Source: Streptomyces cadmiisoli
GTDB lineage: Bacteria > Actinomycetota > Actinomycetes > Streptomycetales > Streptomycetaceae
DNA: 64,000 nucleotides
Direction of reading: 5' to 3'
Assembly: GCF_003261055.1 (NCBI RefSeq)
Contig: NZ_CP030073.1
Span: forward strand, 8,866,001 to 8,930,000
The position numbers and the translations under genes are program-made. The notes beneath the pieces are model-generated. The model did no database searches. It was not told the origin of the DNA and saw only the letters and a program-made list of their open reading frames with translations. Shown piece by piece: positions 47,914 to 52,225 of the stretch. Position 1 is the first letter of the stretch. Each line of letters begins with the position of its first letter.

Positions 47914-47956
47914 ACGCGGGGACATCCCGCTCGTCGCGCCTGTTGGAGTGAACACC

Positions 47957-48541
47957 GTGAAGGAAGCCGTGTACATCGGCAAGAATCCATCAGCCCAGCC
48001 CGATCTCCAGAAGCTGATCCATGAAGTGGCTCTGGGTGACCAGGACTCCTTCGCCGCGGTGTACGACGCCGTGGCAGGTTCCGTGCTCGGGGTGGTCCGG
48101 GCGGTATTGCGTGATCAGGCGCAGTCGGAGGAGGTCGCCCAGGAGGTCCTGGTGGAGGTGTGGCGCACGGCGCCCCGGTATCGGCCCGAGCGCGGGACGG
48201 TGATCAATTGGGTGCTGACCATGGCTCACCAGCGGGCCGTGGACCGGGTCCGGTCGGCGGAGGCTGCGGCGGCACGTGATCACAAGGCCGCTCTGCTGGA
48301 CCGCACGCCCGAGTACGACGAAGTGACCGAACAGGTGGAGAACCGGCTGGAGCGGGAGCAGGTGCGCCGATGTCTGCGCACCCTGACCGAGATCCAGCGC
48401 CAGGCGGTGACCCTGGCCTATTACCGGGGCCTGACCTACCGGCAGGTCGCCGAGGCGCTCGCGCTGCCGCTCGGTACGGCCAAGACCCGGCTGCGCGACG
48501 GTCTCATCCGGCTTCGTGACTGCCTGGGAGTGAGTGCATGA
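47957..48541 (+). CDS. sigK: ECF RNA polymerase sigma factor SigK
   Basis: A 194-residue ECF sigma factor. Sigma-2 includes QDSFAAVYDAVAGSVLGVVR and EEVAQEVLVEVWRTAPRY; sigma-4 ends in LTYRQVAEALALPLGTAKTR. Sequence and context (rskA directly downstream, fasciclin and molybdopterin oxidoreductase genes nearby) mark it as SigK. I chose GTG 47957, with GGAG eight bases upstream; GTG 47948 overlaps that site. Its stop overlaps the anti-sigma start (ATGA), giving translational coupling. In mycobacteria SigK drives secreted MPT70/MPT83-type proteins. Confidence 0.92.
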   Translation: MKEAVYIGKNPSAQPDLQKLIHEVALGDQDSFAAVYDAVAGSVLGVVRAVLRDQAQSEEVAQEVLVEVWRTAPRYRPERGTVINWVLTMAHQRAVDRVRSAEAAAARDHKAALLDRTPEYDEVTEQVENRLEREQVRRCLRTLTEIQRQAVTLAYYRGLTYRQVAEALALPLGTAKTRLRDGLIRLRDCLGVSA

Positions 48542-49296
48542 ACAGCATGACCGACCCGCACGGCCTGACCGGTGCCTATGCCCTGCACGCGCTACCGGAC
48601 GCCGAACGCGCCGCTTTCGCACGGCACATGGCCGACTGCGAACCCTGCCGCCAGGAAGCCGCGGAGTTTGCGGCCACCGCGGCCCGGCTGGGCCTCGCGG
48701 CCACGGTCACGCCCGGCAGCGCGCTCAGGGAGCGGGTGCTGCGGCGTGTCACCACTGTGCGGCAGGTGCCACCGGTCGGCCGTCCGGTGGAGTGGGCCCG
48801 GCGTGCCGGGGTGAGGAGGGCGGGGGCGTTGTCCCGATGGGCGCTGGCCGCGTGCGTTGCCGCGGCGTCGGCGTTGGGCGGCACCGCCGTCTGGCAGTAC
48901 GAACGGGCACAGGACGCCGCGGAACGCGCGGCACGGGCGGAGCAGCGGGCCGACGCGCTGACCGGGGTGCTGGCCGCGTCGGACGCCAAGTCGCGGACGG
49001 TGAGCCTGCCCGGCGGGGCGAGTGGGACCCTTGTGGTCTCCGACGGCCGGGACCGTGCCGTGTTCCTGGCGTCGGGGATGGCCGAGGCGCCGCGGGACAA
49101 GGTGTACCAGTTGTGGTTCTCCGACGGGGGGACGATGCGGTCGGCGGGCCTGATGGACCCCGGCCGCACCGAACAGGCCGTGTTGTTGCGAGGCCTCGTG
49201 GACGGTGCAGCGGGCGTGGGCATCACCGTAGAGCCGGCTGGCGGATCGGAACAGCCAACCTCTGAGCCGATCGCCCTGATGGAGATGCCGGCATGA
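48538..49296 (+). CDS. rskA: Anti-sigma-K factor RskA
   Basis: A 252-residue membrane anti-sigma factor. The N-terminal zinc-binding anti-sigma motif is complete (HMADCEPC, H-x3-C-x2-C, about residues 30-37), one membrane helix lies at about 101-120 (ALAACVAAASALGGTAVW) and the outer domain is of RskA type (VYQLWFSDGG). It holds SigK inactive at the membrane until regulated proteolysis. Translation is coupled to sigK by the overlapping start. The gene ends next to the C-terminal half of a broken DUF1295-type gene. Confidence 0.92.
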   Translation: MNSMTDPHGLTGAYALHALPDAERAAFARHMADCEPCRQEAAEFAATAARLGLAATVTPGSALRERVLRRVTTVRQVPPVGRPVEWARRAGVRRAGALSRWALAACVAAASALGGTAVWQYERAQDAAERAARAEQRADALTGVLAASDAKSRTVSLPGGASGTLVVSDGRDRAVFLASGMAEAPRDKVYQLWFSDGGTMRSAGLMDPGRTEQAVLLRGLVDGAAGVGITVEPAGGSEQPTSEPIALMEMPA

Positions 49297-49299
49297 GGC

Positions 49300-49532
49300 T
49301 GTGCGGTAACCGGGGGATGAAAGCTGCGGGTGCGCGCCGCATAGGCGCACCAGCCGGGACCGTCGGCCATGTGGCCTTCCGGTAGCCGTTTCCCGCTTCC
49401 GGCGATCAACAGGTAGGTCATCCCGACCGGCGAGAGGACGGACACAGGCAGCCGCCGCGGGACCGGCGTCGCAGGCGATCAGGAACAGGTCCCACCAGAC
49501 GAGGAAATCGCCGAGGTCGGGGCGGCGGGGTC
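49300..49532 (-). pseudogene. DUF1295-type membrane protein gene, C-terminal part
   Basis: The minus strand reads RRPDLGDFLVWWDLFLIACD and then, in another frame, VLSPVGMTYLLIAGSGKRLP, GHMADGPGWCAYAARTRSF. This is the characteristic end of DUF1295 (steroid-reductase-like) membrane proteins, with a frameshift between the two parts. The N-terminal part lies at 51188-51750, on the other side of an IS630-type element. The gene was already decayed or decayed afterwards. Confidence 0.75.
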
Positions 49533-49628
49533 TAGCGCTGCGACCGGAAAGGTTCACTGGGTTCGGGAGCGGATGAGCCTTTGGAGGGAGCGGACGGCCG
49601 GTGGGCCAGGCGTGAGAGTATCGCGGCC

Positions 49629-49946
49629 GTGACCATCAAGCTTCATGACTTCGACGGCGAGCACTCGCTGACCTTGGATGTTGGTGGCCTGGCTGCTGAT
49701 GCCGCAGTGGTCGATGCAGAACACGAGCCGAACGGATACTTCTGGGAAGGTCTCGTGCGGTTTGCCTGGCCGGACATCGCCGAGCGCCTCGACTTCGACA
49801 GCGAGGCTGGCATGTTCTGCGCGGTCGGGAGTCCGAGCGACCTCGTACTTCTCAAGACGGCCGTTGAATCAGTCATCACGAACCCCGAGGCAGTCCGCGA
49901 CATCATCACCCGGGCGGAGACTTCGGGCTTCGAGTTCGACGATTAG
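49629..49946 (+). CDS. Imm51-family immunity protein
   Basis: A 105-residue acidic protein with the Imm51 core HEPNGYFWEGLVRFAWPDIA and LDFDSEAGMFCAVGS. Imm51 proteins are predicted antidotes to nuclease or similar toxins of polymorphic toxin systems. I chose GTG 49629 because the family-like part begins there; the frame is open to TTG 49581. No toxin gene lies nearby. The gene sits inside the inverted repeats of an IS630-type element, tail to tail with the transposase, so it seems to travel as cargo or to have been trapped there. Confidence 0.78.
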   Translation: MTIKLHDFDGEHSLTLDVGGLAADAAVVDAEHEPNGYFWEGLVRFAWPDIAERLDFDSEAGMFCAVGSPSDLVLLKTAVESVITNPEAVRDIITRAETSGFEFDD

Positions 49947-49976
49947 AGATCCAACCCGATAGCAACACCAGGTGGG

Positions 49977-51158
49977 TCAGGATGCTGTGCAGAGTGCGCG
50001 TCCGCCCCAGCGGATGCCCTTCTCGCTGCGGATCCGGGCACGCTCCTTGCGCTGGGCGGCCAGCACGTCGGGGTGGCGGGCGTTCTTGTTGCGCCAGCGC
50101 AGGTAGGCGTGCAAAGCCCGGGTCTGGGTGGGGTGGCTGCGGTGGTTGAAGTTGGCGACGGTGAACTGCCGCAGTGGTCCAAAGTGGGCTTCGATCGGGT
50201 TGGCCCAGGATGCGTAGGTGGGCGTGAAGCACAGCTCGACCCGGTTTCTCCTGGCCCAGCGCCGGATCGTCTCGCCCTTGTGAGCGGACAGGTTGTCCAA
50301 GATGACGTAGATCGGCGCGCCGTCCGGGCGGGCCGCGCGGATCGACCTCAGCGCGGCCAGGGCGTTCGCGGCGCCCTTCTTGCGGCGGTTGACGCCCCAC
50401 AGCGTGTCGTCGCCTATCGAGTAGCAGCCGTGGAAGTAGCGGACGCCGTGGGTGCGGTGGTAGGTCGCGGGGTGCCGCTCGGGGTGGCCGGCAGGGGCCC
50501 AGCCGGAACCGCCGGTGGGGCGGATGCCGAGCGGGCCGAACTCGTCGAACGCGAACACCCGGTCCGGGAACCGCTCCAGAACGTGCTCGATCCGGTCGAG
50601 CTTGGTGTCACGCTCGGGGTCGGGTGATTCCTTCCAGGTCTTGGTGCGCTGGAAGGTGATGCCACGACGGCCGAGCAAGCAACGTAACGCCTCGCGGCCG
50701 ATCCTGATCACGCGACCGTGCACGCGTCGCAAGTGGGCGGCAAGTTTGCGGACGGACCAGCTGGTGAAGGGTTGGCCGGGCCTGGTCGGGCGGGTGGTGG
50801 CCGTCGCGACGACGAAGTCCTCGTCGTCAGGACTGAGCAGGCGGGGACGGCCTCCCGCCCACTGAGGGTCCAGGCAGACCAGGCCGATCTCGTTGAACCG
50901 GTGGATCACGTCACGGACGGTGTCCTCGTCTGCCTGCACCAGTTGTGCAATCACCGGGACCCGGTTCCCGCCAGCCGAGGCCAGCAGCATCATCGCGCGC
51001 CGGTAGCGCACCGAACTGGTGCTGCCCCGGCGCACGCTCTGCTGCAGCTTCTGCCCCTCTTGGTCGGTCAACCTGCGCACACGGACAGGCCCAGCCACCA
51101 CACCCCCAGCGATCGGACGAACGGACGTCACCGGACATCCAACCGCCGCGACCACCAA
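49977..51158 (-). CDS. IS630-family transposase
   Basis: A 393-residue DDE transposase. The N-terminal helix-turn-helix region (RVPVIAQLVQADEDTVRDVI) is followed by a catalytic core with FAFDEFGPLG, YVILDNLSAHKG and TYASWANPIEAHFGPL, giving D, D and E. The GTG 51158 start is close to the right terminal repeat; a later GTG before RVRRLTDQEG would also work and may be more usual. The gene looks complete, so the element may be mobile. Confidence 0.95.
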   Translation of the reverse strand: MVVAAVGCPVTSVRPIAGGVVAGPVRVRRLTDQEGQKLQQSVRRGSTSSVRYRRAMMLLASAGGNRVPVIAQLVQADEDTVRDVIHRFNEIGLVCLDPQWAGGRPRLLSPDDEDFVVATATTRPTRPGQPFTSWSVRKLAAHLRRVHGRVIRIGREALRCLLGRRGITFQRTKTWKESPDPERDTKLDRIEHVLERFPDRVFAFDEFGPLGIRPTGGSGWAPAGHPERHPATYHRTHGVRYFHGCYSIGDDTLWGVNRRKKGAANALAALRSIRAARPDGAPIYVILDNLSAHKGETIRRWARRNRVELCFTPTYASWANPIEAHFGPLRQFTVANFNHRSHPTQTRALHAYLRWRNKNARHPDVLAAQRKERARIRSEKGIRWGGRALCTAS

Positions 51159-51187
51159 CCCGGCGAACCTTCCCGGTCAGAGCACTA

Positions 51188-51750
51188 GCTCCGCAGGCTG
51201 CAGTCCATGATGCGGCCCCGCATCGGCCAAGTGCGCCTTGAACGCCGCCAGTTGGGCGTTCCCTGACGGCCTCGGAGCACAGCCCCGCGGCCCACGGGAC
51301 GGTCTCGGTCCAGTCAGGACCATGAGGGGGCCCGGTCCGTACGCCGCGGCCTGGACGGGCAGGGACACCAGCCACACAAGGGCGCCCTGGAACAGGCCGA
51401 TCATGCGCAGAGCGTAGAGATTCCGGCTGCCGGGAGCCTTGACCAGTACGGCTTCGTGGCGGGGGTGCTCGCCGTGGCCGTGGCCGTGGCCTCGCCCGGC
51501 GATGTGCGCGGCGAGACACAGTCCCCGCACGACCGACAGCGTGGTCACCAGGATCCGGCGCGCCGCGTCCCCGTGGCCGACCGCGGCGGTTGATTCCGAG
51601 ACGGCGGCGAAGCCGAGTTCCCATGCGACGTCAACCACCCGGTGCAGGCCCTTGCGCACCGCCACTGCGAAGGTGACCGGCATGACGGCGAGCGCGAGCG
51701 CGGGCGCCGCGGCCAGCCCGAGCCTGAAGGCACCCCGCACACCGGGGAAC
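51188..51750 (-). pseudogene. DUF1295-type membrane protein gene, N-terminal part
   Basis: Reads MPVTFAVAVRKGLHRVVDVA and WELGFAAVSES. Further on come EAVLVKAPGSRNLYALRMIG, LVSLPVQAAAYGPGP and QLAAFKAHLADAG, the N-terminal two thirds of a DUF1295 protein. A frameshift precedes the expected RIMD motif, and the coding sequence then meets the IS630-type element at 51187. The remainder is at 49300-49532. Confidence 0.8.
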
Positions 51751-51818
51751 CGGCGGGACGTTTGGCTGGGTAGGTGTACTACCGCGGACGTGGCTGAATC
51801 GGCGATCAAGCCGATCCC

Positions 51819-52225
51819 GTGCGTGACACCCGGCGGGCGTTGGACCGGCTGCGGGAACTTGTCGAGGACGTACCCGCTGTCCTGCTGAGTCACTCGATAG
51901 GCGGGCGCGCCGCCCTCAGAGCGGCGGGCGCCGATCGGGTGCGAGGTGTCGTCACCCTGGCGCTGTCGTGTCCGAGGGCGCGTTTCTCGGACAACTCAGG
52001 TACAAGGACATACCGGTGCCGCACGGCGGTCGTGACCGCGTCACCGTTCCCGGTGCCTTCGCGGTCTGCCCGGCATGCGCGGGCGGCGGGCGCGCATGCC
52101 GGAATGCTGCTGATCGAGGACGGCGGCCCCGCGATGCTCCGCCGTCGCAGCGACGGGTATCGCACCGCGGCTTCAGCCGTGGCCCACCTGGTGGCGCCGG
52201 ACACCGCACGCTTCGACCTGTTCGC
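51819..52225 (+). pseudogene. Frameshifted alpha/beta hydrolase fragment
   Basis: A plus-strand frame begins RRALDRLRELVEDVPAVLLS followed by HSIGGRAALRAAGADRVRG, the nucleophile-elbow region of a small dienelactone-hydrolase-like protein. It shifts frame near 51970 (IPVPHGGRDRVTVPGAF, an acid-loop region) and shifts back near 52085 (AGMLLIEDGGPAMLRRRSDG, a histidine-loop region). The N-terminus is missing. Confidence 0.6.

Follow-up and report, generated by a model that had tools for sequence, protein, structure and literature searches.

The window, a 64,000-nucleotide stretch of Streptomyces cadmiisoli DNA (contig NZ_CP030073.1, positions 8,866,001 to 8,930,000), contains a 1,651-bp unit at 49535-51185 in which an IS630 transposase gene and an intact Imm51 immunity-family gene lie tail to tail between two ends (Table 1). 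The initial annotation, made from the sequence alone, had proposed a unit of this length bounded by imperfect inverted repeats matching at about 23 of 29 positions and directly flanked by TA. We recovered 23 matches in 29 positions between the termini at 49535 and 51185, the best unrelated pair among the 29-mer pairs listed for 49000-51800 having 22, and found TA adjoining both ends, each within a CTAG. On a position matrix, the left end (LE) scored 33.9 (49532-49561), compared to −2.1 for the 99th percentile of the best scores from 300 shuffled 2.5-kb stretches. The two gene assignments of the annotation also held. Specifically, the transposase, whose open frame extends to 51158, matched NF033545 (IS630) with 157.3 bits (cut-off 100) as well as DDE_3 (62.4 bits), and the neighboring protein matched Imm51 (PF15595) with an E value of 5.1e-13 and 49.3 bits (cut-off 29.8).

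Table 1. Features of the unit and of the gene that it interrupts (positions in the window)
Feature	Position	Strand	Basis or remark
DUF1295 gene, left piece	49303..49532	-	DNA alignment to uninterrupted relatives
TA target duplication, left	49533..49534		Inside CTAG 49532-49535; empty-site alignment
Outer left end (LE)	49535..49564	+	Imperfect inverted repeat of RE
Imm51 immunity-family gene, cargo	49629..49946	+	105 aa, GTG start
Putative weak relic of a former inner left end	49943..49972	+	Overlaps Imm51 stop codon; score −9.2
IS630 family transposase	49977..51098	-	Start placed as in the annotated 1122-bp gene of L195
Right end (RE), transposase 5′ side	51156..51185	-	Inverted repeat; matrix score 50
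TA target duplication, right	51186..51187		Inside CTAG 51185-51188
DUF1295 gene, right piece	51188..51893	-	PF06966

The unit holds one transposase and so lacks the IS copy on each side of the cargo that defines a composite transposon. Inspection of its open reading frame (ORF) list gave no second half of a toxin-antitoxin pair, and a pattern search of the whole genome allowing up to three mismatches found no ends beyond the unit's own two. Cut-and-paste transposition by its own transposase is known for ISY100, an IS630/Tc1-mariner element, as passages of PMC2170065 describe; by analogy, the window unit presumably moves in the same manner into TA within CTAG, with which the identical dispersed copies described below are consistent. 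A short relic of a related IS630 transposase is present elsewhere in the same genome (G000:C1:471097-471268, L002). Within the unit, a motif like GAGAGNATCGC at about 49614-49629, a few nucleotides ahead of the GTG start codon, is shared by many Imm51 loci and could be the −10 element of a leaderless transcript.

The two pieces of a DUF1295-type gene lie exactly outside the unit, an arrangement that had been taken to indicate one insertion event, to be checked against an uninterrupted locus from a relative. When the flanks were joined at one CTAG, they aligned continuously across the junction in 11 of 11 relatives (L184-L194), which were the best of 150 genomes by match to the right flank and in which continuity of the DUF1295 gene was judged at the junction. 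Within 25 nt on either side of the junction the relatives showed two gap positions, and L187 four. The TA of the empty site could be read in two of the 11 (L188 and L194), the other nine having diverged there. Thus, the site is empty in every relative examined, in agreement with a single insertion, and the relatives lack the insert at this locus rather than carrying an Imm51 gene without the IS, the finding that the annotation had named as evidence against cargo. Directly before the interrupted gene, at 47948-49296, are genes for an extracytoplasmic function (ECF) sigma factor of the SigK type and an anti-sigma factor of the RskA type.

Dispersal of the unit and conservation of Imm51

The annotation had also proposed a search for other copies with the same ends and the same gene at unrelated sites. 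Such copies exist: Streptomyces acidiscabies carries three identical units, each 1,657 bp from CTAG to CTAG with the same ends outside the same gene, and neither flank is similar among them. Among the matches listed, four further genomes of the genus (G264, G059, G126, and G223) match over the whole unit. Unit pairs of at least 96% identity lacked a common flank on the sides compared in 16 of 17 cases, one of the 16 having been compared on one side only. Any match to the unit was found in 149 of 72,556 plasmid records, and five of these, all Streptomyces plasmids, hold at least 80% of it; in the four that we inspected, three have an annotated Imm51 gene beside an IS630 transposase and one is without annotation. 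As a separate observation, two 99.9% identical cargo elements with identical flanks (L158 and L160) lie near both ends of one chromosome, probably reflecting duplication of a terminal repeat and not two separate insertions.

The association of gene and element extends to the wider Imm51 family. A scan of species genomes gave 48 loci with close Imm51 relatives; in 21 of them a transposase of the same type (full, split, or truncated) lies directly past the Imm51 stop in opposite orientation, and in 20 of those 21 an LE match of at least 24 of 33 positions lies 60-108 nt before the Imm51 start. Across 392 genomes of the window's genus, 22 had an Imm51 match (23 matches in total). Fifteen of the 23 were at least 73% identical to the window protein, 12 of which lie beside an end (score >14) and/or a transposase, and in about 1.5 kb of flank neither was found beside any of the eight more distant matches. 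Imm51 is therefore true cargo of the unit, as had been proposed: a passenger gene unrelated to transposition that lies inside the ends and moves with them, which is what passages of PMC3129680, PMC9330008, and PMC10132070 define as a transporter IS (tIS).

To describe the cargo protein, we compared it with its family. The table of PMC3482391 gives a W and a Dx[DE] motif as conserved Imm51 residues. In 32 aligned Imm51 proteins W39 and E59 are invariant, and the Dx[DE] position reads DSE in the window protein, the D being absent from a few relatives. Tox-RES and Tox-URI1 are the Imm51 partners named in PMC3482391. Immunity proteins of polymorphic toxins neutralize a cognate toxin whose gene is usually their neighbor. 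Judged solely by its family, the protein would neutralize a toxin, with Tox-RES or Tox-URI1 toxins as candidate targets. No toxin partner was recognized in the ORF list of the unit or among the neighbors of 16 Imm51 loci, viewed as ORF lists. A spread of antidotes without their toxins, as the annotation had proposed, is plausible.

Conservation was measured over 41 loci, comprising the window and 40 of the 48 loci of the species scan (L032-L071; the partial or distant L072-L079 were left out), with dN/dS restricted to genes that have exactly 105 codons. An open Imm51 frame of at least 100 codons was present in 13 of 14 loci with a full transposase (dN/dS 0.15), in seven of eight with a truncated one (0.20), and in 18 of 19 with none (0.23). 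Ten of these 19 keep an end above 99% of the null before the gene, and Imm51 is open in all ten; the other nine have no sign of an IS and are uninformative on its loss. Where the IS is dead and still recognizable, by a truncated transposase or an end only, Imm51 is thus open in 17 of 18 loci, with a dN/dS of about 0.19 (16 genes, 120 pairs, which partly share a history predating transposase loss). In L048 and L066 the gene is broken (51 and 25 codons, respectively), and in L067 the frame overruns the family length. Because Imm51 stays open with low dN/dS beside dead elements, it is probably useful to its hosts. The annotation had left room for an addiction gene or a trapped-gene relic, and the latter option is argued against by these data.

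One cargo slot and traces of capture

To place the unit among its relatives, we assembled 110 elements, consisting of the window unit and 109 others among the matches listed that have a near-complete transposase and were chosen by similarity to the unit; those left out were mainly truncated or lower scoring. Ends were recognized by a position matrix score >14, the best of 300 shuffled 2.5-kb stretches reaching 0.9. A left end was found in 100 of the 110 elements, 89 of them with cargo and 11 near 1.2 kb without cargo in that slot; the fraction 89/110 is not a genus-wide rate because the elements were chosen by similarity to the window unit. In the remaining ten no outer end was recognized, one of these being cut by a contig end. 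Both ends were recognized in 85 of the 89 cargo elements, which range from 1.1 to 3.3 kb (median 1,894 bp), and 67 of the 89 have CTAG at both ends. The forms near 1.2 kb bear out the earlier reading that a simple IS630 element measures about 1.1-1.2 kb and that the additional length of the window unit is the immunity gene.

The slot is shared by many other genes, which goes beyond what the annotation had envisaged. The cargo comprises 47 sequence classes, of which 17 occur in more than one genome. For most classes a single representative was compared with Pfam or NCBIfam; several of these representatives had no match in either. Four families of immunity protein are present: Imm51, Imm53, SUKH-4, and MafI. 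The remaining cargo includes DUF6368, several GNAT proteins, VOC/glyoxalase, NADAR, OMP decarboxylase, CPT-like and APH-like proteins, two methyltransferases, MDMPI/DinB, an S1 domain, histidine phosphatases, an inositol phosphatase, an LD-carboxypeptidase, alpha/beta hydrolases, a pentapeptide protein, a beta-lactamase fold, an ABC ATPase, an SDR with HxlR, and an ArsR-type HTH with AHSA1. In 199 genomes, such an end and/or a transposase match lies within about 1.5 kb at six of 21 Imm53 loci and five of 20 MafI loci; in L221 the transposase is only 28% identical. The window's own genome has two MafI-type matches of equal score and opposite orientation (G000:C1:135678-135818 and 9133554-9133694), and no IS630 end lies beside either of them.

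Immediately past the stop of the transposase gene, many cargo elements retain a degraded version of the left end. Compared with a null of 2,298 zones from inside cargo, such an inner-end relic scored above the 99th percentile in 22 of 89 cargo elements (0.9 expected) and above every null zone in 14; the 22 are spread over 12 of the 47 classes and include near relatives, so not all are independent. In the other 67 of the 89 no relic reached that level. At one place the relic is preserved to different degrees: in L003 it scores 31.4 and overlaps the Imm51 stop codon, in L040 it scores 8.7, and in the window, where it is nearly gone, its score lies above the 99.9th percentile of the null (−12.0) and below its maximum (−3.0).

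The outer ends also retain pieces of a second copy in some relatives. Similarity of at least 45 nt to a plain IS was seen at the outer end in 64 of 89 elements, compared to six with reversed cargo; as the end itself gives about 30 nt, most matches are little longer, and reversal destroys the end, only the longer matches speak for a second copy. The clearest are in L149, where 214 nt cover the 3′ part of the transposase gene and LE (90%), in L178, where 236 nt in inverted orientation cover the 5′ part and RE (74%), and in L132 (140 nt, 82%), with weaker remnants in L116 (100 nt, 73%) and L139 (118 nt, 68%). No intact two-copy precursor was found. The simplest, and likely, history is that a composite transposon lost all but the end of one copy by deletion and that the other copy's inner end decayed. 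Two elements counted as plain, L030 and L009, have a strong inward-facing end about 0.36-0.39 kb past a weakened RE, with a 112-aa ORF between the weakened inner end and the outer end in L030; apparently, cargo has also been captured on the 5′ side of the transposase.

Origin of the unit and relation to known systems

Taken together, we consider it highly probable that the unit is an IS630-family tIS that moves as a whole, arose from a collapsed composite, and has kept Imm51 because of a benefit to the host. It would comprise one transposase and one passenger between two functional ends. Two plain 1.2-kb IS630 copies would have come to flank a host gene, forming a composite transposon, after which a deletion would have reduced one copy to its outer end and the inner end of the surviving copy would have decayed, leaving only the long unit mobile; this order of events we infer from the relics and remnants in relatives. 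Imm51 would have been retained for its use to the host, the most likely use being protection from the toxins of competitors by an orphan immunity protein.

It is scarcely credible that the parts are chance neighbors, a plain IS630 beside an Imm51 gene with a far end-like sequence that is unrelated or belongs to a second IS. Such IS630 sequences are indeed common, at least 345 of 392 genomes of the genus having some match to the unit, many of them partial, and a strong inward-facing end (score >14) lies on the side away from the cargo in two of the 29 relatives whose sequence extends 1.3 kb or more on the RE side. Past the transposase 3′ end, however, 26 of the same 29 have one (four of the 26 being forms of about 1.2 kb), further copies of the unit, at unrelated sites, share its outer end, and the empty site is as expected if the unit inserted in one piece. 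A chance pairing of the ends is ruled out by the comparison of both sides and by the three identical units dispersed in S. acidiscabies. That Imm51 is a useless trapped passenger, moved only because the ends enclose it, we regard as unlikely: the apparent lack of a toxin gene and the two broken and one overlong reading frames would suit it, but the gene's integrity and low dN/dS beside dead elements and the occurrence of four immunity families as cargo do not, and conservation after transposase loss largely disposes of a useless relic. It is more doubtful still that Imm51 serves the transposon rather than the host, as a regulator of transposition or an addiction component. The two genes converge across a narrow gap at the 21 loci that have both, yet Imm51 keeps its open frame at loci whose transposase is truncated or missing, unrelated proteins fill the same slot in sister elements, other elements have no such gene, and inspection of the unit's ORF list gives no toxin-antitoxin partner. 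The persistence of an open Imm51 frame after IS death therefore favors host benefit over both of these readings.

A further possibility, to which we give slightly less than an even chance, is that the slot was filled mostly by recombination of cargo-plus-LE modules between elements, with few primary captures. On a transposase tree (from which 10 duplicate loci and one short-transposase row were left out) the cargo labels require 63 changes, and Imm51, found on several transposase lineages, requires seven, of which well-supported branches force five. In class c7 (97% versus 89%) and in the pair L040/L041 (86% versus 76%), identity is higher for the cargo than for the transposase, and the Imm51 stop with its inner-end relic forms a similar junction in several lineages. 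These tree changes and cargo pairs indicate an additional exchange of modules between elements, and such exchange obscures any single course of capture. Nevertheless, 47 cargo classes still require primary captures, and cargo and transposase divergence rise together in nine classes with at least three members (r from 0.53 to 1.00; the Imm51 elements L037, L177, and L182 were left out of this comparison). Module exchange thus complements the collapsed-composite origin rather than excluding it. We put at even chances a general process of single-gene capture by Streptomyces IS630 elements, in which IS pairs would trap a gene, one copy would collapse, the inner end would decay, and modules would be swapped, giving a cassette-like pool that spreads antidotes without toxins.

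Several known systems resemble this lineage in part. Tenzen and Ohtsubo reportedly described, in 1991, an IS630-associated composite transposon preferring CTAG; a composite transposon keeps two IS copies, whereas in the present elements one copy is missing or cut back to its end. Integron gene cassettes likewise bring many unrelated single genes to one slot, but the ends here are transposon ends. With IS630/Tc1-mariner elements such as ISY100, as described in passages of PMC2170065, the unit shares a TA duplication, a single DDE transposase, and inverted ends; plain IS630, in contrast, has no cargo. With tIS it shares one transposase, two ends, and one extra gene unrelated to transposition. 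PMC10132070 lists three tIS members in the IS1202 group, with extra ORFs left unassigned; the elements described here differ in belonging to the IS630 group and in having one slot, 47 cargo classes, and traces of capture. Orphan immunity genes on mobile DNA without their toxins also form the AID and rAID clusters of Bacteroidales, which they protect, according to the abstract of PMC12247911 and passages of PMC10470768. There, AID are arrays of immunity genes, which in rAID are associated with a recombinase, whereas in the Actinomycetota unit one gene sits on a 1.65-kb transposon with a DDE transposase.

Among the literature matches listed, which include few subscription journals, no title concerned cargo-carrying IS630 in Streptomyces, which is not proof of absence. 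Transporter IS and the IS630 mechanism are known; what these elements add is a lineage whose modular slot takes one gene and in which a record of capture can still be seen. Close relatives include plain elements, elements in which the inner end persists as a relic, others that keep part of the second copy, and finished units, and together they make the passage from an IS to a gene-carrying transposon readable. If general capture is correct, the pool repeatedly includes Imm51, Imm53, SUKH-4, and MafI, and would be a transposon counterpart, in soil actinomycetes, of the AID of gut bacteria. The lineage itself offers a route along which immunity genes could spread in Streptomyces separately from toxins. 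The slot also points to many small, unknown cargo genes that merit testing, because genes kept after the death of their transposon are likely to be useful.
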